Assembly (NCBI RefSeq): GCF_020283565.1
Contig: NC_060064.1
Location: 8,112,266 to 8,176,265, forward strand
From: Trifolium pratense
Taxonomy: Eukaryota > Streptophyta > Magnoliopsida > Fabales > Fabaceae
Reading direction: 5' to 3'
Length of the DNA stretch: 64,000 nt
Positions within the stretch are counted from its first letter, which is position 1, and each line of letters opens with the position of its first letter. The notes below the pieces were generated by a model that was given only the letters and a program-made list of their open reading frames with translations, was not told where the DNA came from and did not search any database. A program made the translations under genes and the position numbers. Shown here piece after piece: positions 6,618 to 61,555 of the stretch.

Positions 6618-6784
6618 AAAATGTTTTACGTTTGGATACATTAATTAATGTGAAATTGAGTCGAATAATAATTTTGAATGTAAAATTCAATTCTATGATT
6701 ACAAGCTACAATCCGTCAAAAAATGATTATAAGCTACAATTTATTGCATAAGCATAATTAATTTTAAAGGAAAAATCGATTATA

Positions 6785-6937
6785 CTCTCTTCGATCCTTA
6801 ATATAAAATAAACTTTACTTTTGAGATTCATTGAAAATCTAATGTATTTAGTCTATAATATGATTATAGACTAGGTACATTAGATTTTCAATTAATCTAA
6901 AAACCAAAATTTTTCTTATATTAAGAACCGAAGAGAG
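6785..6937. mobile_element. Stowaway-like MITE
   Basis: The termini CTCTCTTCGATCCTTAATAT and its inverted partner ATATTAAGAACCGAAGAGAG are flanked by TA on both sides. The interior is a further inverted repeat around AGTCTATAATATGATTATAGACT. Confidence 0.8.
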
Positions 6938-7159
6938 TACTCTAGAAAATTCAAACAAGCCAAAATCAATTCTACACTTCTAAAATTAATTTTTTATTTT
7001 TTGGTCAAGCCTCTAAAATCAATTTTATATCCTTCAAAAGTGAAATCAAACATAAACTTCAAAAGCTCTATTTAGTCCATTAATTTTAATATTTTAAAGT
7101 TAGTTAATTTGATCTCTTAACTTAACTAAGCTAATGCAATTTAGTCTCTTAAACTTTAA

Positions 7160-8560
7160 AAGTCGGTTTGGTTCCTTCACTTATTTTAAGTTAATGCAAC
7201 TTGATTTCTTGACAAATGAATATTACAACATGAAAGTATATTTTCCGGACAACATGAAGATCCCCATTTTAGTCCCTAATGTAACTTGTGTTACATTGAT
7301 CATTAATGTATTGAAATTTGAAATTACCAACACATTCACAAGTGTATCTTATTTTAATCATTTTAATCCTCAAATATGTTGTTTGGTAGTTAATTTAGTT
7401 CTCAAAATTTATTTATTTTTGTTGATTATTTTAGTTCATAAAATTACTAACAAAAGAAGCATAAAAAATGTGTTTAATTACCGTAAAAAAATGTGTTTAC
7501 AATTTTAATTTAATTATTTATGAGTTATATTGATATCGTCTCACACATTTTCAAATGAGTTTAATTGATATGCACTGACGGTGTAAAATAGTTTTACACG
7601 ATCGTCTAATAAATAACCATCATTGTTCTGGTGAACACTCAAAGGGGGGTGTATTATTTATATTGGATTAAATAATGTTACACAGGCCTAGACCAAAGAA
7701 AGGTCCATATGTGTGAGAATAGAAAAATGTGTGTGTATGACCATGAATGATCAATGTTATTTATAAAGTCTCCTTCCTTCTTCTCCAAGCTCTACTACCC
7801 TGTTTTTCGGCCACCTCCTTCTTCTTCCGTGAATGGCGCTCTTAGGGGTGGTTATTTTCCTCCTTACCCCCAGTTCCGGTGGATCATGATGGGTGGTTAC
7901 TATCTTCTTCCTCAAGAGTCATCAGAGTGGGAGATCATGGGGGAGGAGATACTTTTCTCCACTTAACGCCATAATTTCCAAATATTGGCGCCATCCCAGC
8001 TCGTCCCGCCTTGCATTATTTGAAACCGTGGATTGGATCATATTGGGCCACTTCTTGTTGGGCCTTGGTAAAATTTTCCTATCCACACCCGGTCCAATCA
8101 TTTTGCCATGTCATGTCAAGAAAGTGGGGTGAAGTGGGGGTAATGTTGCGAAAAACATAATTGGTATTGGTTGACAGTGTAAAATTATTTTACATCGGTG
8201 CATATCAATTAAATCCTTTTCAAATAGACTATTTGCTCATATATATTTTCATAATTTATCAACTATTCTCACATGAATTTTTTACACTCACAAATTTTTG
8301 TTTCATAATTTTTGAATCAAATACTTCAAACCGAAAAATATAAAATGTTTTAACATCAATATTGTTAATTATATCGATTTAAACCTTTGGGCCTCACGCT
8401 GAAATTGGCCCAAATATAAATTAGAAAAAAATCACAACTTTATAGTTAAATAAAATTATCTAGAGTTCCATATTGCATTTTTCTCAAGTAGTCACTTGAC
8501 TGAGAAGTCATTTTGCAATCAAGAGATATCTGGTTCGAAACTTAGCATTGGAAAAAAAGT
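7160..8560 (+). repeat. Dispersed repeat, copy B, interrupted by a TIR element
   Basis: Copy B is collinear with copy A (4233-5036), including the blocks ACACATTCACAAGTGTAT, GGTAGTTAATTTAGTTCTCA, ACTATTTGCTC and GGGCCTCACGCTGAAATTGG. A 660-bp insertion (7557-8216) splits it. The two copies lie about 3 kb apart in direct orientation. Confidence 0.7.
7557..8216. mobile_element. TIR element with 9-bp TSD inserted in repeat copy B
   Basis: The inverted ends (TTTAATTGATATGCACtGAcG against TTTAATTGATATGCACcGAtG, then GTGTAAAAtAgTTTTACAC) extend about 44 bp. The 9-bp repeat TTTTCAAAT flanks both sides (7548-7556, 8217-8225). The orthologous position in copy A (near 4740) is an empty site, which independently confirms the boundaries. 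TSD length suggests a Mutator-like non-autonomous element. The interior contains a TATTTATAAAG motif and CT-rich leader-like DNA, but no recognisable gene. Confidence 0.85.
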
Positions 8561-9037
8561 ATAGATTGTAGCTACAAATGAGGTATTTCAAAATACTTTG
8601 CAGTGCTATGAGATTTCAGCTAAGAGCAACTATAACTTTGAGAAGCTTTTTCGTTATCTTGCCAGGAAACTTGCTGGTGATCCTAACCTGCACTTTGTAG
8701 AATCTAAGCTATTTTAAAACACCTCTTTTTTTACATATATAATTTTTATTTTTATTTCAATTTCAATATAATAATTTATTTATATTTAGAAAATTAGTGA
8801 CATCAGTATAAAATCAAACTCTTTGAGATAATCTGTTTATTTTAAAATTTAGAGATAATTTATTTTAGGTATGGTTAAATCTCTGTAAATCTGTAATACA
8901 TATTCATTAGTCGTAGTTCAAATATGTAATTCTCCACTTATTCACCTTAAATGATAAAATTTTAGTCACTAAATTACTTGACAAAAAAAAAAATCTCTCA
9001 GCTAAAATTTAAATATTAATTCACGTTATGAAAATCC
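8561..9037. other. AT-rich intergenic DNA
   Basis: No gene, RNA or bounded repeat is recognised. The sequence directly right of repeat copy B (8561-8640) looks unique in the window. Confidence 0.5.
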
Positions 9038-9072
9038 AACATATTTAACTAAACCGTCTATTATCCCAAACC

Positions 9073-11043
9073 GGTTTGGGATAATAGATGGGTGTCTGAT
9101 GGTTCAGTTTTTACAAGACCCTTGCAACTGGATCCAATGTTAAGCTATTTGAATGTATCTGATTTGTTAATGGCAAATGCAAAAAAGTGGAATATGCCTC
9201 TTATTTGCTCTATTTTTTATAACAGCAGTGCAACAAAAATTTCGCAAACTCCTTTATTAGAGTCGTTGTTGAAGATAAATTGATCTGGAGACTTGAGAAA
9301 AATGTACACTACTCTGTTAAGAGTGCATGTCGTTACTGCATCAATGAAGCAATTGACACAACCGGTTTGCAAATTCCGAGTCAATGGAATAAAATTTGGA
9401 GAGTTGAAGTTCCGCCAAAAATTAAGAATTTTATTTGGCGATTATGTCGAAATTGTATTCCGACTTGTGCTAGCCTTATTAAAAAAGGCGTTAACTGTCC
9501 TGATATTTGTGCTCTCTGTGAAAATGAACAGGAAAATAATTTACACATATTCCTCTTGTGTAACAAAGCAAAGGAAATTTGGAAAAGTGTTGGATGGTGG
9601 AATACTTGCAAACTCACTTGCATCATAATAATATTGCAGACGTTATCTTCTCTGTGTTACAGGTTTTCAATTCAGATCAAATGTCACTTTTCATGGCTTT
9701 GTTATGAAGTATTTGACAACAAAGAAATGCAAAGGTTTGGAGAGACAAGGTTGAACCGTTTCAACATGTACGTGCACGTGCTATCAACTTGCTTACAAAT
9801 TGGAAAAGTGCGCAGAATCACAAGAACTTACACTCCCAGCAACGACAACATAATACTGCAATTCGTTGGTCAAAACCTCCAACTGGTCGGTACAAATGCA
9901 ATATACAGTAGATGCATCATTCTCCAAACAGCAGAACAAAGTTGGAATAGATATGTGCATCTAGGGGTGCTCAAATCCAAACCAATCCAAATAAAAACCG
10001 AAAATCGATCCAAAAAAACCGAAAACCGGAAAAAACCGAAGTTTTTTGGATGTGTTTGGATGTTCTTTTGTGAAAACCGTTGGATCGGATCGGATTTTGG
10101 ATTGATTTCTTAAAACCGATCCAAACCGAACCAAACCGCGTATATATATTTTAATATTTATTTATCTTTTTATTAGTATAAATATATATATTGCATTAAC
10201 TTTTTTTTCATTTTAAATTTTGTTAATACTATATGTTAGTTTAATTTAATCTATTTTTTTTTTTTACTTTTTATATGTTTCGAATATAATTGGTAATTGT
10301 CATTCCAAAATATTAATTTTCAATATATTATATGTTATATTTTACATCAAACTTAATATTTTATGTCCAAAAAAAATCAAACTTAATATTTATTTTGTCA
10401 AAAATGTCAAACTATTATTTTATAGCGTTTTTTATAATATTTATATTTATTAAAAAAAATTACAATTTATAATTTGGATATCCAAAAACCGATCCAAATT
10501 AAACCGCATAATATTGGATCGGATTGGATCGGATTTTTTTTATTTGTCATCCAAAACCGAACCAAACCGCAAATGAATTTATTTTTGGATCGGATGAGTT
10601 TTTGCCTCAAAACCGATCCAAACCGAACCGCGAGCACCCCAGTGCATCCGAGATGATCAAGGAAGGTTTGTTTTGGCCAAAACAGAATGGTTATCGCCCA
10701 TTACTGATGTTGATACAGGAGAAGCTCTTGGCTTACTCAATGCTCTCAATTGGGTCCATGACTTGTAGCAGGAAAATGTTGATTTTGAACTTGATTCAAA
10801 AAATATTGTCACTAGTTTCCATAGTAAGCATCCTAACGCGTCTGAGCTCATAGATATTATTAAGGATTGCGTACGTGTCTATAACACTTATTTTAGAAAC
10901 TCTCGTATCAAGTTTATTAAGAGACAAACCAATGAGGTTGCTCATGCCTTAGCAAAGGTGACCACATCTCTAACTAGTTTCCACCTCTTTATTGATGTAC
11001 CCATATGTATTGATAACATAATTAATAATGAAATGCTATAAGT
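9073..11043 (+). pseudogene. LINE ORF2 C-terminus: zinc-binding RT domain and RNase H, broken
   Basis: The frame starts at WDNRWVSDGS, a motif seen just upstream of the reverse-transcriptase zinc-binding (zf-RVT) domain. A frameshift near 9278 is followed by IWRLEKNVHYSVKSACRY, VPPKIKNFIWRLCRNCIP and a Cys-rich CPDICALCENEQENNLHIF. RNase H-like sequence follows (RYKCNI, DASFS, then after the hAT insertion DDQGRFVLAKTEWLSP, GEALGLLNALNWV, ELDSKNI, RQTNEVAHALAK). There is an in-frame TAG after NWVHDL, several frameshifts and the hAT insertion. It is dead. The long frame spanning 9280-10113 is partly an artefact of reading into the hAT element. Confidence 0.88.
9962..10640. mobile_element. hAT-type non-autonomous element inserted in the LINE RNase H region
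   Basis: The ends TAGGGGTGCTC and GAGCACCCCA are inverted repeats typical of hAT MITEs. GTGCATC is duplicated at both flanks (7 of 8 positions of an 8-bp TSD agree: TGTGCATC and AGTGCATC). The subterminal regions are rich in inverted AAACCGATCC / GGATCGGTTT motifs and the centre is AT-rich without coding capacity. Confidence 0.85.
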
Positions 11044-11084
11044 CTTTTTCCTTCAGAAGAAAAAAAACATATTTAACTAAACCG

Positions 11085-12186
11085 AACTCCTAATGGACAA
11101 TTGCTTTTGGTTCTTATACCCTTAGAAGAGAAAATTAAAATTTGCTTCAAAAAAGAAGAAGAGAAAATAAACATTGAATATAATCAGACAAATTTTGACA
11201 CTCCTTAAATTGTTGTTTCATATGCTTTTTTAGTCATGAGTACCATTTTAAAACCAAACATTTTTTTTGACAAATAAAACCATAGTTCCTCAGGGAAAAA
11301 AACCATAGTTAATTTTTTTTTGTTAAAAAATCATAGTTAATTAGTTATATGTACAATTGTGAAGTGTTATACATTTGCCAGTTTCCTGAGAACTTACATG
11401 GTTGAAAGGTAGCTCGCCTTAACCTTAATATCTTATGGTACTCAGTTCAAGACTTGGCATTGGTCAAAAAAAAAAAAAACTTGGCATTAGTGTTGTGAAA
11501 AACTTACTTAAGAAGTCCTCTAATTTTACTAGTGTCTTAGAGGTGGAAAACTTGTTAGCATTTGCTTAATACTCCCTCTAATTTTTAATAAAAGAATTTT
11601 TTTTTTTTAATTTATTGAGTAACTGTAACTAATGTATTTTTTTTCAGAAACAGTAACTAATATATCTAATCTATAACATAAACATGGCCGTATTCAAGTT
11701 TTTAGAGGCTATGTGCAAATATTATAAGTGGCCCTTAATCATAAAAAAATGCAATTTTTTCCTAAAAAAATCATCATTGATTTAAATTATAAATAATATA
11801 AAATAAAAATAATCATCCTTGTAATTAACACAAAAGTAGATTCATATTATAATTAATAACAACAAATTACATTCTAACTACTTAAAACGAGTCATTGTTC
11901 TAGCATTTTCTTAAACAAATTCATCAACCGAATCTTTATATTGTATGTCCTTTAAGAGATGATTCTCGATTGATGTCATGATATACTACTAGTGTGCATA
12001 TATTTACTCATTTTTATTTGATAACGCCGCTAAATATAATTAATATTCTATTTATTTTTCTTCCAATTTAATAAAATCCTTCTGCATAGTTTTAGATCTA
12101 TATATTAAGAAGGAAAAAAAAAACAATTAAGATATATTATTCATATGAATTATCGATAAGTATGTGTATTCACAAAATTACAACAT
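11085..12186. other. Intergenic AT-rich DNA with tail-only micro-insertions
   Basis: No gene is recognised. At 11276-11342 the motif CATAGTT occurs three times separated by A- or T-rich spacers. At 11452-11488 a 10-bp repeat flanks GGTCA13. The stretch 11398-11460 has a tRNA-like look (GGTAGCTCGCC, AGTTCAAGACTTGG) and may be a SINE remnant. A one-sided CTCCCTCTAATTTTTAATAAAAG near 11572 is a degraded MITE end. Confidence 0.5.
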
Positions 12187-12560: not shown

Positions 12561-12617
12561 TGAGTCGAGCCTATATATAGAATAAATATATTAATTACTC
12601 AATAAATTTAAAAAGGA

Positions 12618-12940: not shown

Positions 12941-12957
12941 TAGAGGTAAGTAGAAGT

Positions 12958-14007: not shown

Positions 14008-14267
14008 CTCGCTCCGTCCTATTCGATAAGACTTTATTTGACTAAATATATTATTCATTTATTTTGTTTTAACTATGTTTTTGTTAATAATATATGAATG
14101 TAAATATTATTATATAAGATTTTGTTTGACTTGTTTTAATGAATATTTTTAAAATATTAATTTTTTATAATTTTTACCAATAAACAATTAAAGATATTAG
14201 TGATTGAAATTATGCATTAACATACGTGCAGTGATCAACAATACCTTATATTTTGGGACGGAGGAAG
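14008..14267. mobile_element. Stowaway-like MITE
   Basis: The ends CTCGCTCCGTCCTATTCGAT and TTTTGGGACGGAGGAAG are imperfect inverted repeats. TA follows the right end, while the left TA is not clear. The interior resembles 22834-23092 (TAAAGATATTAGTGATTGAA, TATGCATTAACATACGTGCA). Confidence 0.65.
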
Positions 14268-15644
14268 TATAAGATATTGTTAACAAGTGTTCCGGTCTTT
14301 CTTTCGGAGCAATTAAAATTTTATTTAGTAATTATTATTTTTCTTTTAAAACTTATTAATAGTTATAAAGGATATATTTTTATATATCCCCTATACAGTT
14401 AATAATTTTTAATTGTTCAAATAATACTACTCAATTCTAATAGGATGACCATGATGATTAAGGTGTATTCAAAACTCATTAAACTACATTCCAAAAACAA
14501 AAAAACAAAAAAAACTCATTAAACTACATTATAAAGTTTGATAGTACTTTGAAGACATCGTAATGAAGAATTTTATGACCGAGAATCTATGAAGCACAGA
14601 CACACACGGACACGACACGAACACTGAAACGTCGATACTAATAAAAATTTGGAAAAATGACATAATTTAATGTAATTGTAAGTGTCGATGTCGGACACGG
14701 ACACGCCTAATCTAAGGAGTGTCAGTGTTTCCTAGCCCAGAATTACATAAGGTTTGAGACTTGCTTCGTTGGGATACGGAAGACAAGCAATGTAGGCCGC
14801 GACCGTTCTAAAAATGTAGCAGTAACTCGATTAAAACCGGTCAATAAGACAAATATCGATCTTAGTGCTTTTGATATCTTCATGTGGGAGAGGAATAATA
14901 GCCCTACAGGTAACGGAAAAAATGTAATGAAGAATTTCTTAAAAGAGAATATTATTCTTTTCCAACTATATACTCCAAAGAGGTTACTAGTCAAATTAAA
15001 TGAAACACACTTTTTTCATTTTTTTCCTTCAACGGTAAATCAAAACTTAAGAAGTTTCCCGGTACCTCCACACTCTCCCAACATGGTGGAAACAAGTTAA
15101 GACACACAAAGACAATCCTCCAAATTTCTTTAGGCATAGAGTGTGTAAAGAAAATGTGGTTATGTGCATATTTCAACCTCCTCAAAACTTAAAACACAAC
15201 ATAATGACATATATTGTAGTATTTTGGTGACAATAATTAAAAATTACTACTACTAGTTTCTACAGCAAAGCTATCCCAAAGTTAGAATCTAGCTAGATTC
15301 TGGCTACATAAAACTAGTACTCATGTGTAGGCGTTAGATATCTGCCAAAATATATGGCAACCAGCCAACCAATTAAGAAAAGCAAAATTCGTTATCGCCT
15401 CTCATCATCATCATCGTCTCTTATACCATTATTTATTTATTTATTTATTTTTTGTTTTCCTACCGCAAGTATCCGGCACACATGAACTATCTAATTTGGT
15501 TCGGAAGTCGGTTATGACATTATGTCTTTTTAGCCCCCGATTGTAGTTACGAAAAATCGAAGTGTAGTCCTCCATACCAAGTTACAATTACCACATGACC
15601 AACTACCTGTTAATCCATTATTCTTATTCCATAATAACCAAATA
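14268..15644. other. Intergenic DNA
   Basis: No gene is supported; the frames at 14743-15185 on both strands have no recognisable domain. A perfect 20-bp direct repeat flanks an A-rich 20-mer at 14471-14530. A GACACGGACACG-rich stretch lies near 14600-14720. Confidence 0.5.
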
Positions 15645-16109: not shown

Positions 16110-16177
16110 TACTTCTTTCGGATAAGTAAAAAGTTATTTTTTACCATTATAAAAAAAATTAATTATTATTATTATAA

Positions 16178-16679: not shown

Positions 16680-16853
16680 TGTTAGAATAAGAGATATACA
16701 AATAGAAAAATAGAAAGATAAACGACGGCTAGAGTTTCATAGAATACCAATAGCGTAACATTACAAAAAGGTTACTAGAGAATATATAATAAAACCTAAT
16801 GGACTCTAAACTAACAGGCCCAATAACAAAAACTATTATTTTATTATCTAACA
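16680..16853 (-). repeat. 3' LTR of the TRIM-like element
   Basis: This is a TG..CA-bounded direct repeat of 174 bp next to the purine tract. It looks identical to 18039-18212. Confidence 0.9.
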
Positions 16854-17130
16854 CCTACTCTCAAACTCATGATGCATCAACAAGAAGCATTATGAGTTTG
16901 TCAAACAAAATACGAAAATAAAATAAACTACCAAATAAAATAAACTTCTAACATCACCCCTCAGGTTAAAGCTTACTAAGCTTTAAGCTTGTTACAAATT
17001 AGCCCTGACAACAAATCAACCCAATTAAGATCACGATCAAATTAATCCAACATCCAATCCAATGCAGTCCAAGCTAACCAAAAACCAAATCAATCGAACA
17101 AATTCAAACTAAACCAATCATAAGAATCAA

Positions 17131-17521
17131 TAGGGAGAAGTGCAATCAATCAGAAGAAGTGCAATAGGGAGAAGTGCAATGCAATCAGAAGAGAAGTGCA
17201 ATAGGGGGAGAAGTGCAATGCAATCAGAAGAAAAGTGCAATAGGGCAAATGCAATGCAATCAGAAGTGCAATAGGGGGAGAAGTGCAATACAATCAGAAA
17301 AGAAGTGCAATAGGGGGAGAAGTGCAATACAATCAGAAGAAGTGCGATAGAGAGAAGTGCAATGCAATCAGAAGAGAAGTGCAATAGGGGGAGAAGTGCA
17401 ATACAATCAGAAAAGAAGTGCAATAGGGGGAGCAGTGCAATGAAGAAGTGCAATAGGGAGAAGTGCAATGCAATCAGAAAAGAAGTGCAATAGGGGAAGA
17501 AGTGCAATGCAATCAGAAGAA
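17131..17521. repeat. Tandem array of about 39-bp units inside the TRIM-like element
   Basis: The array has roughly ten irregular copies of a unit built from GAAGTGCAAT, GCAATCAGAAG and GTGCAATAGGGGGAGAA. An open minus-strand frame of 133 codons through it (17528-17127) is only the translation of the repeat, with LHFSSDCIALLP recurring. Confidence 0.9.
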
Positions 17522-18038
17522 CCAACAAAATTCAAATTGTGAGACTCACCAAACAACCGAATTGTGAGCACTATCATGACTCACCAAACAAATTCAAATG
17601 GAACCAAACCAACTAAATCAAATTGAACAGAAGGAAACCGAAACTAATTAACTAACCGACATAATAACCAAACCAATAACCACGAACCGAAAACCATAAG
17701 ATTTGTTGACGAAATTGGGTCCACTAGGCACCCAGGAAGAAACATATTCATGTGAGTAGGGATAAGCAAACTAACGTCTCCAAGTGAGAAAAATAAATTT
17801 GCCTTCAAATTATACAGTTACTCGTCCATGGTGAGCAATCTGCAACCAATCTATACATAGCCTTTTTCAAACACCTTTCAATCCTACATCATTCTCCTTT
17901 TTTTTTTTTTTTCTTTCTTTTTCTTCAATACAACCAAGCATCAAACGAATACAAAAAAAACATAGTCCCAAATTTTGGGAATTCGACGGCGGAAGCGACA
18001 AATGATTCATGGCGGATCGTACCATGCTCTAGATACCA

Positions 18039-18212
18039 TGTTAGAATAAGAGATATACAAATAGAAAAATAGAAAGATAAACGACGGCTAGAGTTTCATA
18101 GAATACCAATAGCGTAACATTACAAAAAGGTTACTAGAGAATATATAATAAAACCTAATGGACTCTAAACTAACAGGCCCAATAACAAAAACTATTATTT
18201 TATTATCTAACA
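18039..18212 (-). repeat. 5' LTR of the TRIM-like element
   Basis: This is a 174-bp LTR next to the putative primer-binding site. It looks identical to the other LTR. Confidence 0.9.
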
Positions 18213-18490: not shown

Positions 18491-18778
18491 CTCCCTCCGG
18501 TCCTTTTTATAAGAAACAATTTGGAAAAAAAATTTGGTCCTTTTTATAAGAAACAATCATTAAATTTATTCTTACAATTCCATTTCTACCCTTATTAAAT
18601 TGTATCTATTCCAAAGTTATGCATTAATTAGAGTGACATATTCCCTAAGAATAAATTAATACACCAAGGTTAGTTTTGGAATAGATTGTAAAATTTTAGA
18701 ATTTTTATTAAGAAAGATAAGGTTTCTTGGTATGTGTGTTTTTACCAAATTGTTTCTTATAATAAGGACCGGAGGGAG
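18491..18778. mobile_element. Stowaway-like MITE
   Basis: The ends CTCCCTCCGGTCCTTTTTAT and ATAATAAGGACCGGAGGGAG are inverted repeats flanked by TA. TTTTTATAAGAAACAATTTG near the left end recurs inverted near the right end. Confidence 0.88.
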
Positions 18779-18829
18779 TAGTAAGTTATACAATAATTAT
18801 GAATGAGATTGCTCTTAAGTCTTAATTAA

Positions 18830-22546: not shown

Positions 22547-22833
22547 TTAGGTTTACCTTTATATAGAACTTGTTGATATTTTTGTTTATGTTTGAATCTT
22601 TATTTTATCTTTGCACTCTTTTTCTCTTTATCAAGTTTTTATTCCATTGATTTTTTTTTTATAAAATTTTTAATGAAGCAGAGAAATTCTTACAACTTCG
22701 ATTTTGATCTAATACCCCAATATTCATTTTTTTTAGCTGTTTCTTTAGAGCGACAACACATTTAGGACGTCTTAGATGTGTGGACTTTATTAAAAAAATT
22801 ACTAGCACTAGTGCTAATAATACTAGTATAGTA

Positions 22834-23092
22834 CTCCCTCCGTCCCAAAAAGAATGACCCATTTTGAATATATGCACTATTCATATATATTGTTTTGACC
22901 ATATTTTTCTACTAATAAATAAAAATAAATATTAACATATAAGATGTTGTTAGATTCGTCTCGATGAGTATTTTCAAAATATCAATTTTTTATAATTTTT
23001 ACTATTATACAATTAAAGATATTAGTCGCCAAAGTTATGCATTGGCATGCGTGTTTCGGTCAACTAGGTCATTCTTTTTGGGACGGAGGGAG
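22834..23092. mobile_element. Stowaway-like MITE
   Basis: The ends CTCCCTCCGTCCCAAAAAGA and TCTTTTTGGGACGGAGGGAG (inverted repeats, TA-flanked) bound 259 bp. Related copies lie at 14008 and 38412. Confidence 0.9.
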
Positions 23093-23102
23093 TAACACGT
23101 TC

Positions 23103-23153
23103 AATGTTTGTATTTTTGGTCTTTTTTTTTTTTAATGTTTGTATTTTTGGTCT
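23103..23153. repeat. 20-bp direct repeat flanking a pure T11 run
   Basis: AATGTTTGTATTTTTGGTCT occurs exactly at 23103-23122 and 23134-23153, separated only by 11 T. This is discussed as a tail-only retroinsertion. Confidence 0.9.
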
Positions 23154-28350: not shown

Positions 28351-28848
28351 CATCAGCACACTTTTTTTTTTGGTATAACATTGGTGCACTTTATATAGCT
28401 TAACAACATAGTACATTTTGTTAGACTAGTGACTAAAAAACTTAAAAAGCCCAATAGCATAAGTTCGCTAACTTTTTTTTTTTTTTTGAAACAGCATAAG
28501 TCCGCTAACTTATTATCTAACAAAATGTACAAATTTTAAAGTGAAATTTCTTTATTAATTTTCCATATACTTAATAATTCTTTATTAATACACTTAACAA
28601 TTGTTTCATAAGCACTAATTAGCATTTCTCATTTATAGATGTATATATATACAGCACTCGAGAGTAATTTGTATGTTACATAAATTGTTCAAAATCTGGT
28701 GTAGAGCTCGATGCCTTCCGTTATACATAAAACAAATTGAAAGCCTCGGTTTGAACATTTATATTTCAAAGGTAACGTAATATCATTTTCAATTTCAATC
28801 CCCATGCATGTCACACACGCAAGATATATGTCATGCAGTGTCCCTATA

Positions 28849-29420: not shown

Positions 29421-29974
29421 AGATTTTGGGTGCCCTGCTCTTATTATAAATTTAATGCTCCGTTTTTTTAATTATAATATGTTACAGAATAATTATATAT
29501 TTTTTTAATTAATTGGAAATCTGTCCTTATTTATATTGTATGTATATATGTTAGTGTAAACATTTTTTTTTTTGGAGTTTATGCTTATTCTAAAAAATAT
29601 TTATATTACTTATTCAATTTTTTTCTATAACACACACTCATTTGTATTGTACGTTAGTGTAAACCTTTTCTTTTTCTAAAAAATATTCATATTACTTATT
29701 CAATTTTTCTATAACACACACACACATATATATATATTGCTGCCCTAAAAGCTTGGGGTTCTGTCCGACCACACCTCCCGAACACGCTCCGGAACCCCTT
29801 GATGTCATGCCAGTTTGTAAATGTTTTCCATACATTTCATTTTCTATCATAATGCTCTTGACTTTGTATATATCTGATATAAATTTTCTAAAAAGAAAAA
29901 ATAAATTAAATAATAATTTTTATAACTTACTCTTGGAGTCAATATAACCCTCATCTAATAATAATAATAATAAA
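29421..29974. other. AT-rich intergenic DNA
   Basis: There are low-complexity stretches and an imperfect duplication of AAATATTcATATTACTTATTC with AACACACACTCA-type tails (29590-29720). No gene is seen. Confidence 0.45.
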
Positions 29975-30200
29975 AAAATTTAAATGCAGTTTTAATCCCT
30001 CTAATTTTTTAATAGTGTGATTTTGAACCCTTAATTTTAAATGTGCAATTTTAGTCCTCAAATTTACCCTTTTTAATTTGGAGGTGCCCAGCTCCATTTC
30101 ACATGACTTGGCAACTTGGAGGTCCCCCAGCTTTGTGACAAGATTTTATTTTATTTTTTACGAAATTGTGACAAGATGTCATGTGGATTTTAATCAATTA
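29975..30200. mobile_element. Single-ended TIR remnant
   Basis: AATGCAGTTTTAATCCCTCT, TGTGCAATTTTAGTCCTCAA and paired CAGCT/ GGCAACTTGGAGGTCCC motifs resemble the outer parts of long-TIR elements. No second end was located. Confidence 0.35.
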
Positions 30201-35209: not shown

Positions 35210-36040
35210 AATCAGAGGATATTCTCAGGAAAATACAAGAAAAAGAAATACACGTATACCACAAGAATAAATACAACAGCCTTGTATGTCGTATTGTTTT
35301 AGCACATTGCAACAAAAGTATGTCGTATCATTTTAGCACACTGCAACAAAAGCAAAGCAAGTCAGAATGATATTTCATCTCTTGAAGCAAAAACGAAATA
35401 AATAATACTAGTAATAGTAAGCACCACCTAAAACATGCTATGATATTAAAGGTACCAGAAACAGACAAAAAGCAACCATTTCAGAAGTTTGAAGATTTCA
35501 TTAACAATAACAAAGCCTCAAATTGAGAATAACATCCTTAATTCAAGTACAAACAGGACATAAAATGTTTCAATAAATTGCTTGAAAACTGACTCATACT
35601 GTAGTTTTAATTTTAGTATTTAAAAGATAGAATACGAGGAGGGAAGACATGAGAATGAGAAATAGATAGATAACCTGAAAGGCTAAAACATCAGAAGAAT
35701 TATAATCCCTCTCATTAAGCTTTTTATCTGTCTGTAGTCGATTAACCAGCCTAATAAAGACATTATGCTAATATGCTTTTGTTAAGAAACCACTCGCCTC
35801 ATTTCTAACTTCAGGGGCAGCTTATTAAAGCTACCAAATGAAATTTTACATTTTAAAGTCTTCAGATGGAAAAAAAAAGTTAAACATGGACCTTTAGTTC
35901 ACACTTAAGCATATTAGTTAACACCTACATTTCCAATACTCAAGTAGAAAAGAGAGACATGTAGCAGTAACAGAATAACTGGACTAAAACTCGATACAGT
36001 TTTGGCATATTTTTTGAGTTGTACAAGAGAAAAAGAAGCC
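34642..36040. other. Intergenic DNA including the 3' side of the SYP71 gene
   Basis: No coding gene is present. A long TA microsatellite occupies 35131-35206. The part nearest 36040 is the probable 3'UTR of the SYP71 gene on the minus strand. Confidence 0.45.
35131..35206. repeat. (AT)n microsatellite, about 38 units
   Basis: The alternation of A and T is uninterrupted. The reading frames running through it are artefacts. Confidence 0.98.
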
Positions 36041-38411: not shown

Positions 38412-38707
38412 TGCAATATTCACATATATTGATTTGACCTTACTTTTTTACTAATAAATAAAAATAAATATTAGTCTATCTCGGTACGTCTTGTGCTGGG
38501 AAGACTGTTTGTGTTAATATATTCCATTTTGGCTTCTTCAAAAAAAAAAAAAACTTATAAGATGTTTGATTCGTCTCGATGAGTATTGTCAAAATATCAA
38601 ATTTTTATAATTTTTACTATTATACAATTAAAAATATTAATCGTCAAAGTTATGCATCGACATGCGTGAAACAGTCAACCGTATCAATCAAATTGGGACG
38701 TAGGGAG
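38412..38707. mobile_element. 5'-truncated Stowaway-like MITE with a small retroinsertion
   Basis: The sequence aligns with the element at 22834-23092 (ATATATTGaTTTGACC, ACTAATAAATAAAAATAAAT, ATGCATcGaCATGCGTG, GGGACGtAGGGAG) but lacks the left terminus. About 78 bp at 38474-38551, ending in A13, interrupt it. Confidence 0.7.
38474..38551 (+). mobile_element. Very short LINE/SINE 3' end inserted in the MITE
   Basis: GTCTATCTCGGTACGTCTTG through CATTTTGGCTTCTTC followed by 13 A is absent from the related MITE at 22834. A severely 5'-truncated retroposon is the simplest reading. The TSD is not clear. Confidence 0.55.
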
Positions 38708-39140
38708 TATTATTTTAAAGAATTAATCTTCTTCTGGTCTCTAACTTTAAAGTTGTTTTTTCACTCAAAGAATTAACCTCTCTTATTATTTAACTTTAAA
38801 GGAGTTGTTGTTGAAATATTTTAATGGAATTGCATTACCCTAAGGTATTTAAACCCAATTCATATACTAACCTACCTTGATAACATTCCTAGGGGTGGAG
38901 ACAATGTCAAAAATTAGAAATTTCCCATTAATAAGAGGGATAATCAAAAAGATAGAAAGTCAAACACTCTTTAGAAATTACTAGCCAAAAACACAATGTT
39001 CAATAAATAGCTATAGGACACACAATATAACTAAAGATATGATAAACAAAAAATAAATATTGGTCAAGTTTGAGAGCCATAATCGCTAGGGGAGGGACCC
39101 ATAACACACTAACACCACATTTCCTTTCCTCCTTCTTAAT
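38708..39140. other. Intergenic DNA between the MITE and the CACTA element
   Basis: No gene or bounded element is seen. Confidence 0.4.
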
Positions 39141-43325: not shown

Positions 43326-46300
43326 GCATCAATTACTAAGCTTAAATGTTGCTAAAGTTAGGAAGAGTCCATAGTCAACATGATTTACTTGTACCATGCA
43401 ACATGTTCTTGGCGTGCCATAAAAAAAACCACATCAACACCAAGGTTTGACATATAACATTCATGAGAAGGATTGAAGCACACGAAAACTAGTCCCAATT
43501 ATTACCTCACTAATCACGTCACATGGGGGGATATTGGATAACTTCTATATCCCCTAATATATAAACATGTTTGTCTTTTGAAATAAAAAAAAAAAATTAT
43601 TATTAACATAATGTAAGAAAGATAAGGAATATAACTATTTAATCAATTTCATTGGCTATACTTCTAGATAAGGTGAAGATGAGAACATGGTGATAATTGA
43701 ATAGATGGACTACTTATTAGTATTATTTTAAAATGGATAGATGCACTATTGTTCAAAAAAAGATAGAGTACTATTGTTACTTGTCAAATAAATGATGGCC
43801 TCTATTGTTAAATAAGGGAGCACTCACCTCATAATCTAGACTACTATTTAACAACACTACATTGACAATAGTACAAAATAGATGATGATCTAATTGATCA
43901 AGAGTAAACATATATAGAAAAAATGCACTTGTGTTCTTTTAATAGTGGAGGATAAAGAATTGAAACATGCATGTTTCATTGTTTATAAGATGCTTTGTTG
44001 AAACTTGAAACTATATGTGGTCAAATACGTCACCTCTTTGGTATGGTTTAATCTATGCACCAATAATTAGGCCATTGTGAAATCACAAAGGGTCAAAGTA
44101 AGTGGGGGGCCTAGTGAATTTATGCTGCATATATATAAATATTAACAATTGGAGCATTAGCCAAAGCCTAATCCAATGCATATGCTCTTGGTGAGTTAGG
44201 TCCACTGTCCCTTATCCTTTAATTTATCTCTCTCTTTTTCTTCCTAGTGCATTGTACATATTCTTCAATTATCTACTGTTTACTGTTGTATATATTTCTT
44301 ACGTTCGAGTTGATTTTACTTTTTAATATCTGACTCAATAATCGACTAATTCTATAAAATAAAATAAAAAAACGATTTTATTATCCACTAACTACTAACT
44401 AGAGCAAAACTTTATACATAGATTCATTATTTCACCGAGTTAAATAATACTACTAAATAGTAGTGATACTTCAACTGTCAAAAAAAAAAAGTAGTGATAC
44501 TTCAAAAAATATGAATAAAGAGACAATGTAAATGTAAATGTGTGTCGACATGCCATGGTTCTAATACATTTTCAGCCAAAGAAAACGTGTCGTTCATTGT
44601 AAGGGAAGATCGACATGGCCACGTATTAACAAAATAATATGTTGACATCCATTGTACCGATCGGGCTTTGAACTCTTCTTTTTGAAGTTTACACTCCAAC
44701 TGCAACAATATGTAATTGGGAAGATAGTATGTATGTATGATATATTCAACATGAGGACAACGAGGTGAAATATATAATCATTTCAACTTTTAACTCGATA
44801 AAAGCTTAAACAAAATGATCACCAACAAATGTTTTTGTAGGAATGATTTTTAATCCTATTTTATTTATTTTGGGAAGCTATTATAACATTTGTACAATTG
44901 ACCTTTCTTTGACACAATACATTAGGACTAAAACAGTCGAGTTTCTACTATTCAAATATAATAACAAGCATTGACCAAAAAAAATACTATAACACAAGCA
45001 TGATAATTAATTTATTAGAAACTTATTTTGTCAGTTCTGGTGAGCATAAGTTGTAGTGATATTATATGTAATATGCAGCGATGAAAATTTGAACTTTGTA
45101 TTTTTATTTATTTGTCTTAAAAATTGAAATTCTAACCACTAAACTATTTGGAAAAAAAAAACTTGATTTCTCCTATAGTTTTTTGATAAGACGAAGAATA
45201 TCTAAACATCAGGGGACAAAGCAACCTTCGCCCCCGTCCTCTGCCTATATATCCTTATTATATTAAAAAAAGAAAAAGAAATATATACAATAACTAGGGG
45301 GACATAAACCTTAACACAGTGATTCCAAGGACCATGAAACAAAATAGACCAACTTGTAGATAATCCTAAAAGACAAAATAGAAGTCCTAAATGTCAAAGC
45401 GAATGAAATGACCGTCAACACGAGAAAGATTCACGTACTCGCTACTCCCTGCACCAAGCAGTAAGCGATTATGGTTTTTTCAAGCTAACAATCCGAAATC
45501 AAAGAATGATATGTATATTGAGATAGATCCGACACAAAATAGGCAATATGAAATCACTCTATCAAACATTGAGGAAAAAGTTTTGTTGTGAATCCAAATC
45601 ACCCAGAACCAGTTGAAAGCCAAATCGAGGGATATATCAATCAATGGGACTAGGCACCACAAGCAAACGAATCACCAAAACATACAGGAACCTGTTAGCA
45701 CGACAAACGACTACTACCTCGTCAACACGGAGTATCTGTGCACCTAGCCCTTTCGAGCAATATTAGGCCAAATCCGATCTTGATTAATCCAACTCGTAGA
45801 AAGCTTCCAACAAAACATGCAGTAGGCGAAGCCGCCTATCTAAACAACATCTCCGTCTGTGGCATAAGAACAAAAAACAACAAAAAATAGAACCCACCAT
45901 GAATGAGAATGTCAAATGGATCCCGTCAACATGAAAACAACTGACCCACTGGCGAACTCACGACAACAACAAATACTCTCGTCGGCATGTCTGTCGAAAG
46001 CTTTCGCCTCCTTCTTGTTGTGTCAATTTTGTTCCTCCACCGCCGAAAACGAGTTTACGTAACACACTGTTCATCCGTTTGACCCAGACTGCAAACAGGA
46101 CACGCGAACCCAAACTGCCAGAGAGAAGGCTCAAAACCGACCTGACAGACACAAAATTGATTTCTCTTATCTTCTTTTTAAAATACCATTGCAAATTATC
46201 GATCAAGGATACATTCTACAAAAATTGAACAAAGAAATCAATTTGTAATTTCTCTCCTTATTTTTAATAACAATATTGAAGATCACTTTATAAATTCCCC

Positions 46301-48700
46301 TTCTCATCTGTCACGTCCACTCATAATTTCTTTAGTTTGTGCACATTTTGTGCCAAACTATGATTATGTTTAATGTATAGATTGTTTTAGTTGCTTCAAT
46401 TTTTTTTATTTATAAAAACTACTAAAACAATTTCTTATTTTAATAAAAATACCATTCTTTCAAATTATGATTAATTTAAAAAGCTTAAACAAATTAATAC
46501 AATCATAAAATAAATAAACTAAAAAAATGGTTAGAATTAGATAAAAAGTAAACGAATAAAAGTACAACAATGAAATTAATCGAAAGTTAAAAAACTTTGG
46601 TTTTTTTTTTTATGGGAATTTTTGTCGCTTTATTTATATATATAAGATAAGATAGACTAATAGGTATAAGAAAAAGAATCTCTAGAAGAAAAAAAGGTTT
46701 TCTTTACGCACTAAAAAAGTATTAGAAGAAGGAAAAATCCTATGTCAAAAATAAAAGTTGAAAAAACTTTGGCCTCAAGCCAGAGGCCCAGAGCACCCCA
46801 CATGAATGCGTTGAGAATTGAGTCATTGTACGAAACAAATTTATTTTCTTGGCGTTGCGGTATAATGGGTTGGGTTGTTTGTTGAGTCAACACACGCATC
46901 TACGAAACGATGCAGCCGTGGCGCGAAGTATCTTACGGGATTTTGGCGCAAATTATTTGGTTTGTCTAATATAACCTCGTATAATGTTTTTTTTTCCTTC
47001 TAAGAATAAAAAATCAGAGATATAATATAATGATATAGAATAAACATTTTAGGACATAAATTTATTTAACAAATTATTGTACAGTTTGTGTCAAAAAATA
47101 AATTATTGTACATTATTTTATTTAATATTTGTTTTTTTAATTGATAGAAACATCACATATATTATACATGCAAGAATCGATGTTCGAACTCCAGATATTC
47201 CACTAGACTACTAGACAAAAAAAAATATTTAATAACTGTTAAGCCACAATTTAAAAACACAATTAATTAATTATTTTTAATAAAATTCTATTAATTTTAG
47301 ATTTAAAGTAGGAGTACTAGAATATCTCCTCTTCTTTTAAGGGTGATTTAATTAACTTAGCTTATCCATTACTGATGTGTTTGATCTACTAAAACTAGAT
47401 GATTGGACCGAACAACTTTTATTCTACAATATTTGATTTAAAAATTAACTATCAAACTTGACAAAATAGGTAACAAGAGACAAGATAAAAGTTAGATAAC
47501 TTTTTTTTTTTTACTATAATACAACTATGAAAAATATGTAAATATCTATTTTAATTTTGAATATAAAAAATATTATCTCTTTATATTTCTCTTTACTATC
47601 TTGTTCTGTTCAATACTTACTATTTTACGAATCAAACACATCTTACATTTTAATTTTTTTTTGGAAGATGTAAGAGGTGTAACATACTAATTCACTCAAC
47701 CACTTCACAAAATATCTCTAATTCTCATAAATACATAAATAATTCATTAAATTACTTGAGAAAAAAAAAGAAGTAAAAATAGAAGCAGTAGAGTATTAAG
47801 ATATTTTAGAATCAAATCAAAGAGTATAAAGATTTTACACTATTTTTTTTGTCCAAACACTACATTTTAATAAGAGATTTTTGAATTATACTACTTTTTT
47901 TTATATGTCAAAATATATTATATTTTTCTCTTTTATGTTGAAATCTACACTTTACATGCTGAGAAAATGAATATTATCTATTTCTGTCAAATATATTTTA
48001 TTGAGATTGAAATATTTAGATGCTTTTATTATACCTAGGGGTATTCATAATCTAAATAACCCTCCATATGTGTGCATTAATCTTTTATGGAAGGATAATA
48101 TTGGTGTTCATTTCAATAGTAGAATTTCTTTGTAATCTGGCCTAGCAGTCTCCCTTGTAAAAAAATAAAAAAAGAATAATTTATTAGTTTTATATTTTTT
48201 CTGTTTTATGTGTCATCCATTTGGACTGATTTTCACTTTTGTGTGAATTTATAAAATCTGATTTTATGTCTCTCAATATTTATATTTCATAATTTAATAT
48301 TTTTCTTATAAAAAAATAGTATAAACACAATTTTTGAATGCGATGATCAAATTGTGGTCGTCCCTACTAAATTTAGCATCAATCGTCACTAATCAACTAA
48401 TTATTGACCACACTCAGTAATTTTAGTAATTGATACTATGAGATGATAACAAATAATTTAAAAAAGTAGTAAATATTTTATTTTTTTATAGAAAATCTAT
48501 GATAATAATTAGATTTGGTACCTTTTGATTCATAAAAGGAAAGAAAATCTTAAACGGCAGAGTAATAGTATGTGAAGAAGACGGAGCAGTTAACGCATTG
48601 TATCGGTAACCGGTTAATAATTGGGCCGTGCAATTCAATATACAAATTCTTTTTCTTCTCATCCTCTTGTTTCTTTCTTTTTATTATTTATTTATTATTT
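43326..48700. other. Gene-poor region between the CACTA element and the RING gene
   Basis: No host gene is supported across about 5.4 kb. Tail-only micro-insertions lie at 43736-43778, 44460-44505, 44956-45001 and 47071-47112. SINE-like fragments are suspected at 45030-45160 (GTGAGCATAAGTTGTAGTG, AAAATTTGAACTTTG) and 47140-47230 (GATGTTCGAACTCCAGA). The stretch 45170-46200 is less AT-rich than its surroundings and its minus strand may be the 5' part of a LINE, but I recognise no domain. Confidence 0.45.
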
Positions 48701-54243: not shown

Positions 54244-56467
54244 ATGGGGCATAGACACCTATACAATGCATCATCTCCAATGTTTGAGGGTGAGGCTGAC
54301 CAAAATTGGAATCAAATGCATACTGATCAACATCATGTGAACCATGGTAATGTTAAATCAATATGCTTTATTTTCACTTTGATTTTGTTTCATTAGCCTT
54401 TTTTTCGTTGCAATTAACTGCATTTCTTGCACGAAACCATATCACTCATATTGAATGAACCTTCATTGCAGGGGGGACCAGCTCTTCAGAGAATGGTTCT
54501 TTCAATTATCCTGTGGAAAATATATCTATAGATAACATTTATTTCCCCTCTCATTGGAATGCCAACACAAGGTCAAATGGATATGCATCCTCTGGACTCA
54601 ACATTGAAGTACCTCCTCCTCCTCATCAATTGGATACACCAGGCACTTCTAACAATCATTTTATGCATTCATCTAGTGCTGGACCTTTCTTTACAGTGTC
54701 TGAAAACTATGTACACCAGCCTTCTTCTTCTTCCAATTATGATAGACAAGCATTTCATGTTGATAGTGGTTTTATTGATCTTACAATGGGAAGTGGACGA
54801 GGACATCACAAGAGAAAGAGCCCTGGAATTCCTTCAGTCTATGAGAGAGGCAGTTCAAGTGGATATTTCAATGCTGGGAGTTCAACTGATCTTCCTATGC
54901 CTTCAGAATCACGGCCAGAGAAGCCAAATATGGATTCTCAATATATGCCGTGGGATCATGTTGCTATGACAACACCCAATTTCAGAGGTGCTGGCCTCTC
55001 AATGAAGGGTGAGAGTTCTGTAAGGAACGTGAGGAGCCGTTCTGCACTTGATTTGGAATCCAACCTGTCTAGGACCCATTTGTCAAATAACCATTCACAC
55101 AACTCGTTCCCTAATGTCCCACCAGTCGGCCATTCTAGCTTGGCGGATCTTTCAGCTCAGGTTTCTACCTCTTTGACAAGAGATTGGAGCCAAATGAACG
55201 TAACTCCTGCTAATGGAAGAGTGTTATTATCAGGTTAGTTTGTGGTCAATAAATCTTTGAATCAAAACATAAACATTATATTCTCCTTGCTTGTATGTCT
55301 AAACAATCTATCTAAAAATACAGATTCTAGTACTTTTGGTCTTGAGACAAGTCACTTCCCGGTTGGAAATGCTGCTGCTACTGCTGCTAGTAATGCTACT
55401 TTAGATGTCGGAAGCTTCCATCATGAATATGGTACAAGCAGAAATCCTACTACTGCTCAAAGTTTTCAAAATTTGACTCAGACTGCTAGGGGAACACGAA
55501 GTAATTACTCTCAAAGATCCGCTCCAGCTTATAGGGCTTCTTCAAGCTTGCGCCTGGGACATCCACCTTCAGAAAATAATGGATTGCCCATGGTAGCTGA
55601 AAGTCACCCTTCTAGACATCCTAGGCCGTTGACCACTATTGGTTGGCGGAACAGTGATAGAAATGGAAGGTCAAGAATTTCGAGTGAAAGATATAGAGCA
55701 TTGGCTGATGAGGCTAGTCTCCATGCTAGATTTGCTTCTGAGGTACCGGTCAGTATATCGGAACTCTAATTCTGTTTGTCAGTATTAAAGGATATATCTG
55801 TAAAATTTGACAGTTATAACACCTGCTCTCGTGTTCTGTTGCACATCATATATTTAAAACCTTAAATAGGGATGCTTGGTTTTTTTTTTTGGTAGAGAAT
55901 AGGGATGCTTGGTTTATTTGCACAATTTAAGCAAATTGCTTCCATTGCAGTAATTTTTTTTTGCAGTATTCATCAGGAGCTGCAAAGCTGTTCTTTCTAG
56001 CTTTACTTCTTTTTTGCAGTATTCATCAGGAGCTGCAAAATTGTTCTTTCTAGCTTTTCTTCTACCGACTCAAATTTATTTATTTATTTTGGGTTTTCAG
56101 GGTTTCATGATTGTTGAGCGTGCTTCACTATATGGTTCTAGGAATATGCTTGATCAGCACAGAGACATGAGGTTGGACGTAGATAGCATGAGCTATGAGG
56201 TGATTACTATTACAGTTTCTTGTGTTACAATCAGTGTTATTTACTTTCAAATTTGTTAAATTACTTTATGGTTGATTTCATTAGGAACTGCTTGCACTTG
56301 GGGAGAGGATTGGCCAGGTGAACACAGGATTGTCTGAGGATGTGGTTTCCAAGTGTTTGACGGAAACAATATATTGTTCATCTGACCAATGTCAGGATGA
56401 AGGAAGCTGTGTGATCTGTCTGGTATGTTTTTCTTGGATTTGGATCCTCTCCTTCATATTTTCTCTA

Positions 56468-56516
<49 letters not shown>

Positions 56517-57630: not shown

Positions 57631-57779
57631 AAGTTGTAGGAAACTATAGATAAATGATGGGTCACAACTCACAACCTCCATTACATTATTTTTATTTTGA
57701 AGCAACTATTACATTATGATTTTGCACTTAAGAAACTAATATTTTCAAATATTATAGTGCATATGGTTCACAACAAAAT

Positions 57780-58290: not shown

Positions 58291-58511
58291 TTTATGTGTG
58301 TTCAATAACCATTATCAACGGTTTACAAAAATAAGTTTATTAATATCCTATATTATGATGTCAATTTTTTTATGAAATATTATGTTACTATAATATCAAT
58401 TTTATATGATGTATGCCATATACAAATATCAATTTTAGGAGAAAATATCCACAATTTAGAGTTTGGTTTGAAGGTAAGTAAAACATGATCAATAATAGTT
58501 TCAAGTCAAGA

Positions 58512-58552
58512 TTCGAACTCGAGTTATACAAAATAATTTGTCCTTAACAAAA
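58512..58552. repeat. 38-bp direct repeat, copy 1
   Basis: ACTCGAGTTATACAAAATAA plus TTTGTCCTTAACAAAA is repeated exactly at about 59994-60029. Upstream GATTCGAACTCGAG gives it a tRNA-like B-box look. Confidence 0.8.
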
Positions 58553-61090
58553 CATATCCCGGAAAATAATAATCATGTAACACAATATATGTTCACAATT
58601 CAAACATTTTTGTAAAAAATAAAATAAAAAATCATCCAATATAGCCTATATAGGACACCTTTTATCATGAAGATAAGACCACAGTTCATGCATATATTTT
58701 TTTTTAGTAAAAAGAAAAAGTTCATGCATTTTTGTCGAAAAAATAAATAAAAGCATGTACTAATAGTGCGCCTTTTACACAACTATATTGTGATTTGTGA
58801 ATAACAGCAGTTCATGCATTTGCTTTGAGGGGTTCCAGAAATACTTGAATTCCATCGATGAATAATATGTGCATGCATAATAGCTATAAAATTTACCATC
58901 TAATTTACTTTTCCATTTCACTCTTCTTCTTCTTCTTCTTTTTTTATTTTTTTATTTCATTATAATAAATTTATATGTACGTAGCAGAGATGCATTGAAT
59001 CTAAGAGTAAGTGACGAATTAAGTCGTTTAATAATTCGATATTAATATTAATAATAATAATTTTATTTTATCAAAAGTGTTTTTATTTATTTATCAAAAG
59101 TGTTGATTATTGTTATGATTATAATATATTAATGATCAAACACACAAAATTTTATATAATTAAATTCAAAATTTATAGGTAATCTAGCCATCGATATTTA
59201 CTTATTTTTTAATTAAATTTACTTATGTTTTTTAAAAGCTTATTATACGTTCATTTGAAATTATTTAGTGATGCATCTAAATAGTTTAAAAAATTTATAC
59301 AAATTTGAGAAGTTAATCTACTTAATAAGAGTTTTTGATCGGATGGTTAGATTAATAAAATTCATTGTTAATAATGAATTATTAAGTAGAATAACCCATC
59401 TCATGGTTACTTTTGGAGTGAACATATCACAACTCATAAATATATTATCTTAAGACAGGTAAAAAAATCATATTGTCTTACATTGAGTGTAATTCTATTT
59501 TATTAACTCATTTCATATCAATTTTTAAGAACTTATTTATTTTTTATTTTGGTGCTTTAATTCAATATAAAATTTATAATAAAAATGTAATGATGAGCTT
59601 ATATTCAATATAATATATTTTAAAAACATGGTGCTTTAATCGACGATCTTCTAGATGATACCGGGACCTAGACCATCAACGAAAATGAGAACGAGAGAGG
59701 AACTTTGTTAGCTGGGATTGTTTTGTCAAATGATCTCACCGGGCATAAGGTAACAAAATGGACTAATGAAGAAGATACTATTATCATGGAGCATGGTAAG
59801 AATGCATCATCATCTCTTGATGATGTTGTTAAGATTTAGAGGAGAAAAAACTTCCAAATGCAGAGCCAAGGGCATGCATCAGCTGTTTATAGGAGATTTT
59901 TGAGATCCAAAGACAAAGTGAAGAAGTAAAGCAACATAGAGAAAAAAGAAAAACTCAAAACAGAACTGGATGCCTTAAAAGTCAATATTCTGACTCGAGT
60001 TATACAAAATAATTTGTCCTTAACAAAAGTTCATCAACCTCTTAAGTTCAACCACTTGATTACAATTGAATGTTTGCATAAAAAAAAATATTGTCAGTCA
60101 GAGTTGTCAAAGAGGCCGACCCGGGGTGCCAGGACATATAAAGGGGCTTAAGTGGGTCGATCCGTTAAACTTCATGGCTCGACCCACTTAGTCCGACCCG
60201 ATAAGCAAATGGCTACATGGCCTGATGGGCCGACCTGACCAATTTTCATATTTTTTATTTTAAAAAACATATTTAACTAAATCTATGTTATATTTCTCAA
60301 CTAAATCTCCAAAGATTAAGAGGGATACTAATAGGGTAGCCCACATGCTTGCGAATTTGGCCCACTCTTAGCCGCCAATAAGATTCGGTTAGAGTATTCC
60401 CAAATTGCACCTTTTTAATCATGGATGTAAACCATTAATAATAATATTTATTAAAAAAAAATTATTCAAGAAGGTAATTCGTATCCCTATATTTTCTCAC
60501 ATAATCCTCCAAACAACGATATATTCCTCTTTATCCTCATCAAACAAACAAACAAATCTCTAACAAATAATGTCATCCTAATCCAATAAATTTTTTGTCA
60601 TATTATAATTATTTCCACCTCATATCTTAGTATTTTATATCCACTTCTATCTAATATAATAATAAAATTAATTACTACCAAAGTTACTAATTTATCCTTA
60701 GTAGGTTTAATCATATTCCAAGTTTTATATCCTTCATTATAATTTAACTAAAAATATATATAAAAAAAGTATAGAAAAAAATATAAAATAAATACAATAA
60801 AAAGATGATATGCTTAAAATAACCATTTTCCAAGTTGTATATCCTTCATTGTAATTTCACTAAAACAATATTAAAAAAAATATAGAAAAAATATAAGATA
60901 AATATAATAAAAATATGATATGCTTAAAAATAGGAATAAAATAGATTATAGATAGGAACAAAACAATCTATACGAATAAAAATTTCAATAAAAAAATATA
61001 AAATAAAAAACAAAAATAATAAAAAAGATTATATATGAATTTACAACTCTATTGTTAGAGTTAAACAATTGAATTAGGTTCATTAGGCTA
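58553..61090. other. AT-rich repeat-remnant region
   Basis: No gene is recognised. The second copy of the 38-bp repeat lies at 59994-60029. The stretch 60100-60250 is rich in GGGTCGA / CCGACCC motifs and resembles a degraded hAT-like element. The segment 60700-60930 contains an imperfect direct duplication (CAAGTTtTATATCCTTCATT..AAATATAGAAAAAA..GATATGCTTAAAAT). Confidence 0.4.
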
Positions 61091-61099
61091 ATGGTACGT

Positions 61100-61392
61100 T
61101 GGACCACGTTCACAAGTGGTCCACCGTGGACAAGTGATCTATCGAATACAAATTTTACAAAATTTACCGTTTGATTGAAAGTTTATATCATATAGATCAA
61201 TAATAAAAAAATTAGAAAAATTGAAAATCATTCATCATACGAATGATTTTCAATTTTTCTAAATTTTTCTTTTCTATGGATGATCTATATGATATAAACT
61301 TTCAATCTAACGGTGAATTTTGTAAAATTCGTATTCGTTATAATGTTATTCATGACTTGTTCACCATGGATCAGTTGATGAAATGATCCATA
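61100..61392. mobile_element. Long hairpin MITE
   Basis: The arms AATTTTACAAAATTtACCGTT, GAAAGTTTATATCATATAGAT and AAAATTGAAAATCATTC are repeated inverted, meeting at about 61240. The outer parts (GTGGACAAGTGATCtATCGAA against GATCCATGGTGAACAAGTCA) are less conserved. The TSD was not determined. Confidence 0.7.
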
Positions 61393-61555
61393 TTAAAACT
61401 TACCCATTATAAAGTTTAATAAGCATGCATTCATGATTCAAAAAAAAAAAAAAACATGCATTCATAATAATAAAATCTATACATATACTAATGTTTATAT
61501 CGTAAAATATGATTGGATGAATGTATAAACTTATTCACAATGTTTATATTAAAAA

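Follow-up and report, generated by a model that had tools for sequence, protein, structure and literature searches.

In a 64,000-nucleotide stretch of the Trifolium pratense genome (NC_060064.1, positions 8,112,266 to 8,176,265; hereafter the window), we found 15 sites at which a direct repeat of 10-20 bp flanks an insert of just 8-21 nt that is mostly an A-rich tail. We think it probable that these tail-only inserts arose by target-primed reverse transcription (TPRT) of the type used by long interspersed nuclear elements (LINEs), in which the tail and little else was copied. All of the results below are from this single 64-kb window, which is 31.6% GC. The sites are listed here with each insert written with its tail on the right; the flanking repeat is given as a target-site duplication (TSD).

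6695..6740, + strand: tail-only insert CCGTC-A5; TSD of 18 bp with one mismatch
6979..7026, - strand: tail-only insert GGCTTGACC-A6TAA; TSD of 15 bp with one mismatch
10346..10391, + strand: tail-only insert TATGTCC-A7; perfect TSD of 16 bp; inside a hAT-like element that is nested in a LINE
11297..11342, - strand: tail-only insert AAC-A7; TSD of 18 bp with one mismatch
11452..11488, + strand: tail-only insert GGTC-A13; perfect TSD of 10 bp
14471..14530, + strand: tail-only insert CC-A5CA7CA4; perfect TSD of 20 bp
23103..23153, - strand: tail-only insert A11, with no leader; perfect TSD of 20 bp; adjoins a Stowaway-like miniature inverted-repeat transposable element (MITE)
28456..28511, - strand: tail-only insert GTTTC-A13; TSD of 19 bp with one mismatch
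30133..30177, - strand: tail-only insert TTTCGT-A6TA4TA3; perfect TSD of 12 bp
43736..43778, + strand: tail-only insert C-A7; gapped TSD of 17-18 bp
44459..44505, + strand: tail-only insert CTGTC-A10; perfect TSD of 16 bp
47071..47112, + strand: tail-only insert GTTTGTGTC-A6T; perfect TSD of 13 bp
55865..55915, - strand: tail-only insert CTCTACC-A8; perfect TSD of 18 bp
59067..59104, - strand: weak tail insert TAAATAAA, with no long A-run; perfect TSD of 15 bp
61424..61465, + strand: tail-only insert GATTC-A15; perfect TSD of 11 bp

A preliminary description of the window had listed 11 repeat/insert/repeat sites, and all 11 sets of coordinates do contain an insert with an A- or T-run, with a gap needed at 43736. 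It had also named two diverged cases: the region at 11276-11342 holds a good site (11297-11342), but 44956-45001 shows, by eye, a weak repeat with indels around CC-A8 and was not counted. The sites at 6979, 30133, and 59067 were absent from its list.

The inserts share a simple anatomy: a leader of 0-9 nt is followed by the A-run. In 12 of the 14 leaders, the base immediately 5' of the tail is C, as compared to 27.1% of the 705 A-runs of at least 5 in the background (binomial p = 8e-6; the list was curated after inspection of the sites, so this and the other p-values on it are indicative only). Adding the weaker candidate at 11637, which has G before its tail, changes this to 12 of 15 (p = 3e-5). 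The two copies of the repeat are usually intact: 10 of the 14 ungapped TSD pairs are perfect, and there are just 4 mismatches in 221 bp, although the scan itself favors intact pairs.

Tail-type repeats are far more frequent than expected by chance, and they clearly outnumber those of the reversed polarity. We scanned the window for ungapped direct repeats that scored at least 10 around an insert of 4-40 nt, and low-complexity and multi-copy repeats were removed. Of the resulting 54 pairs, 15 were tail-type (inserts that end in A or start with T), 2 were reversed, 2 fit both ways, and 35 were other repeats. (Some of the rows in these counts, and in the counts from the anchored and gapped scans below, are not genuine tail insertions.) In Markov sequences (60 of order 3 and 60 of order 5), the mean number of tail-type pairs was 0.25 or 0.17, respectively, and the mean number of reversed pairs was 0.2. 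Scans with permuted flanks agree with this result, and the preliminary claim that such sites exceed chance is thus borne out in the window. The polarity of 15 tail-type pairs to 2 reversed pairs is significant (two-sided binomial p = 0.002), and it remains so for the 12 of those 15 pairs that we retained (12 to 2, p = 0.013).

To arrive at the final list, we removed three of the 15 tail-type pairs and added three other sites. The pair at 4498 was removed because it is part of a duplicated segment that is common to a paralogous copy at 7463, and the pairs at 38742 and 39425 were removed because their spacers are long or MITE-like. The additions were 11297 and 23103, from the pairs that fit both ways, and 43736, which has a gapped repeat. 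Weaker candidates at 11637, 12841, 44956, 57680, 58683, and 59196 were excluded.

How might TPRT produce such inserts? An L1-type endonuclease would nick the DNA where it resembles aaY|A, and the freed target strand would prime on the poly(A) tail of an RNA. The enzyme would reverse transcribe this tail plus 0-9 nt of the RNA body, and would then halt. A nick of the second strand 10-20 bp away, followed by fill-in, would finish the integration and leave the target duplicated. We infer the enzyme, the source of the RNA, and the early stop. Two features of TPRT are seen directly: TSDs of variable length, typically around 7-20 bp (10-20 bp at the 15 sites), and an A-rich stretch that closes the insert on its 3' side and abuts the second repeat (15 versus 2 reversed). 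The preliminary description had offered this reading as well, and it is both the simplest and the best supported of the readings considered. The polarity, the length of the repeats, and the excess over chance fit it, while the start of the target site fits it weakly. Because the body of the inserts cannot be traced to a source RNA, we class them as working like TPRT products and not as proven members of that class.

For the target site, we relied on a comparison to Sadhu retroposons. In Arabidopsis, according to excerpts of PMC2848041, the 5' nick of Sadhu favors T preceded by adenines, and the TSD begins in adenines. We built a target matrix from 14 Sadhu sites in the same excerpts. A repeat beside an A-tail extends leftward over any A, so in our null model, each random start was slid left over A. 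Under this null, 55% of starts have A as the first base of the repeat, as compared to 13 of the 15 sites (p = 0.011). The sites also match the Sadhu matrix better than expected, with a score of +0.65 versus -1.56 under the null (p = 0.007). The score was -0.65 for the wrong orientation of the same 15 sites and -1.39 for the non-tail repeats in both orientations (using 25 of the 35; the other 10, which in our judgment belong to local repeat families, were omitted). In addition, the final base of the TSD is T at 10 of the 15 sites (p = 0.01). Overall, the bias in target starts is weak, and the target-site evidence for LINE-type insertion points the expected way but is modest in strength. Most of the sites do not have the nick consensus TT/AAAA that the preliminary description had proposed to check for; they are closer to aaY|A, as in Sadhu.

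The window also contains two longer retroinsertions:

9038..11084, + strand: 5'-truncated L1-type LINE (insert 9057-11065, 2,009 bp) with a perfect 19-bp TSD, an A6 tail, and zf-RVT and RVT_3 domains
1777..2006, + strand: tRNA-type short interspersed nuclear element (SINE; insert 1798-1985, 188 bp) with a 21-bp TSD (two mismatches), box A and box B, and the end TTAACAC-A11

Since both of these carry TSDs and A tails, retroposition that primes on poly(A) has acted in the window. The best match for the protein of the LINE, with 67% identity across 36% of the query, is from T. pratense. A LINE relative had no confirmed homologue among the viral contigs searched, and a pattern scan of viral contigs gave 14 exact matches. 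The SINE at 1798-1985 was the sole match when we scanned the window for paired box A and box B; the tail-only inserts (8-21 nt) are too short to contain both boxes. At the gathering level, Rfam identified only a tRNA in the window, and over the SINE there was only a sub-threshold match. We also searched for exact repeats of at least 12 bp with an A-run of at least 5, up to 9 kb apart. This search listed 10 pairs, and in five of them the insert was tail-only. Among the five longer pairs, only the LINE was convincing; the SINE was missed because of the two mismatches in its TSD.

The window holds other mobile elements as well. The element at 9962-10641, nested in the LINE, has the ends TAGGGGTGCTC / GAGCACCCCA and flanks that share GTGCATC; from its ends, we take it to be a non-autonomous hAT-like element. 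The MITE at 22832-23094 has ends TACTCCCTCCGTCCC and diverged copies at 14079-14269 and 38519-38709, and is presumably Stowaway-like. Finally, 29550-29667 may contain an 88-bp retroinsertion on the minus strand, with the end CTCC-A11 and a 15-bp repeat (one mismatch), but it overlaps a local tandem duplication.

If TPRT is responsible, which RNAs were copied? All of the tails might have come from one LINE or SINE family with an RNA ending in (T)GTC-poly(A), which would be compatible with TPRT; the preliminary description had suggested a common 3' end of this kind from the recurrence of GTC. GTC is indeed enriched: it stands directly before the A-run at 4 of the 14 leader-bearing sites (and GTCC at one more), and GTC-A is found at 4 of 10 A-runs in the site spans versus 18 of 695 elsewhere (Fisher p = 1.3e-4, where all A-runs within the site spans were included, even those internal to the repeats). 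However, most of the leaders (10 of 14) have a different ending. These leaders end in TTC, ACC, CC, AAC, C, or CGT, or consist of TAAATAAA (at 59067), and what is common to 12 of the 14 is just the C. Thus, one GTC source is rejected as the sole explanation. The tails do not derive from the LINE or the SINE in the window either, as their 3' ends (CAGAAG-A and TTAACAC-A, respectively) do not match the leaders. We consider it unlikely that a single family supplied all of the tails. Plant poly(A) sites have a preference for cleavage at pyrimidine-A, and the C before the tail could reflect either this preference or a source family.

Several results weigh against tail-only TPRT. First, the leaders (0-9 nt) are too short and too varied for the body to be traced to a source RNA. 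Second, self-BLAST within the window did not identify an empty paralogous site for any of 19 query regions. Third, the target-site signal depends on the details of the comparison. Simpler nulls gave p-values of 4e-5 and 5e-5, but these ignored the extension of the repeat into the A-tail, and the corrected p-values are around 0.01. The mean number of leading A's (1.73 versus 1.15) is not significant (p = 0.10), and neither is the match to the Sadhu matrix if positions -1 and +1 are left out (p = 0.12, n = 13). Fourth, non-tail repeats with short spacing are in excess as well (35 observed versus about 4 expected from the Markov sequences), so another process that creates duplications is active. 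This second process could account for the weak sites at 59067, 30133, and 11297.

Such a process might even explain all of the sites: in the repair of staggered double-strand breaks, the ends would be filled in, 10-20 bp would be duplicated, and an A-run would be captured as filler between the two copies. The excess of repeats with arbitrary filler is consistent with this explanation, as is the modest contrast in target sites between tail and non-tail repeats under the corrected null. Repair insertions of this kind in rice, as summarized in excerpts of PMC7407515, resemble our sites in that short duplications surround inserted filler; but we would not expect tail polarity or a target preference in the rice duplications. 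Filler from break repair should have no fixed polarity, yet tail-type pairs outnumber reversed ones by 15 to 2. Break repair also does not predict that 12 of 14 leaders would have C next to the tail, nor that the tail class would score higher for the target site (+0.65 versus -1.39), although that contrast is modest. Break repair therefore seems improbable as the origin of the tail-only inserts. As for the 35 non-tail pairs themselves (such as 18499-18557, 35297-35352, and 17543-17591), they are probably a mix of duplications from break repair and repeats within mobile elements.

The weakest alternative is that repeats arose by chance around the A-runs that are abundant in sequence of 31-32% GC. 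In an anchored scan of 704 A-runs of at least 5, we found 22 exact repeats of at least 10, as compared to a mean of 1.2 with permuted flanks (or 0.2 for repeats of at least 14); in a gapped scan of 323 A-runs of at least 6, we found 15 repeats scoring at least 12, as compared to 0.4. The margin is smaller at the loosest thresholds (26 versus 4.5 in the anchored scan and 26 versus 4.7 in the gapped scan). The mirrored controls gave 8 and 6 repeats, or 11 and 20 at the loosest thresholds, but these controls are inflated because sites with very short leaders match in both directions. Chance could explain some weak candidates (4.5-4.7 of 26), but given that 8 tail-type pairs scored at least 14 while the 120 Markov sequences averaged 0.00, and given how few repeats the permuted flanks yield, it is ruled out for the strong sites, and we give it almost no weight as a general explanation.

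Insertion of a bare tail by TPRT would not be entirely new. In excerpts of PMC3219598, one of 18 insertions mediated by the L1 endonuclease in humans is a bare poly(T) insertion in NF1 exon 25, and the authors suggest that the homopolymer is what was left of an Alu, L1, or processed pseudogene after severe truncation. The bare homopolymer tail is what our sites have in common with this case. However, the human insertion is about 120 bp, caused disease, and was 1 of 18, while in clover there are about 15 insertions in 64 kb, of 8-21 nt, often with a few nucleotides of the body. Among plant elements, the 5'-truncated Sadhu retroposons, as portrayed in the excerpts of PMC2848041, are similar in their poly(A), their TSDs (7-16 bp in Sadhu), the nick at T after adenines, and the adenine at the start of the TSD; but Sadhu insertions keep a recognizable body, as compared to 0-9 nt in clover. 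The machinery may also have a precedent: excerpts of PMC3747384 propose that plants have relaxed LINEs of the L1 clade that recognize poly(A) and prime on the poly(A) tails of unrelated RNAs. These resemble the machinery that we propose, although no source element was identified in the clover window. In an open-access word search, the titles and the starts of the abstracts among the matches listed did not describe bare-tail insertions in plants or elsewhere, beyond the human NF1 case, but this does not prove absence from print.

Thus, bare-tail insertion is a kind that is already known, and the new part appears to be the density of these insertions and their apparent dominance over longer ones. 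More tentatively, the LINE machinery in this clover might produce bare tails more often than anything else: on RNAs with C as the final base of the body, reverse transcription would usually abort within about 10 nt of the junction of the poly(A) and the body, and integration would still be completed. If so, very large numbers of short A-tracts and 10-20 bp duplications would be written throughout the genome without being noticed in repeat annotation. Tail-only insertions should escape annotation methods that rely on homology because they contain almost no body. If they do outnumber longer LINE and SINE insertions, then A-tracts, small duplications, and indel polymorphism have a hidden origin in them, and counting them would show directly where reverse transcription by LINEs ends.

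The window has a few other features. It includes a two-exon IDD zinc-finger gene, of which 361 residues are 100% identical to a T. pratense protein (416 amino acids); the next best match is from T. repens (90%). The region at 16680-18212 has two identical 174-bp terminal repeats (TGTTAG...CTAACA), a 5-bp flanking duplication (ATTAT), and a minisatellite at about 17130-17531. It is probably a young and short (1.5 kb) long terminal repeat (LTR) element or an element similar to terminal-repeat retrotransposons in miniature (TRIMs). Its inner flank beside the right terminal repeat has TGGTATCTAGAGC on the minus strand, which we take to resemble an initiator-tRNA primer site. Finally, an inverted repeat (61539-61803 and 62125-62388), with arms of about 265 bp that are 92.5% identical, surrounds an A/T-rich array at about 61989-62130.

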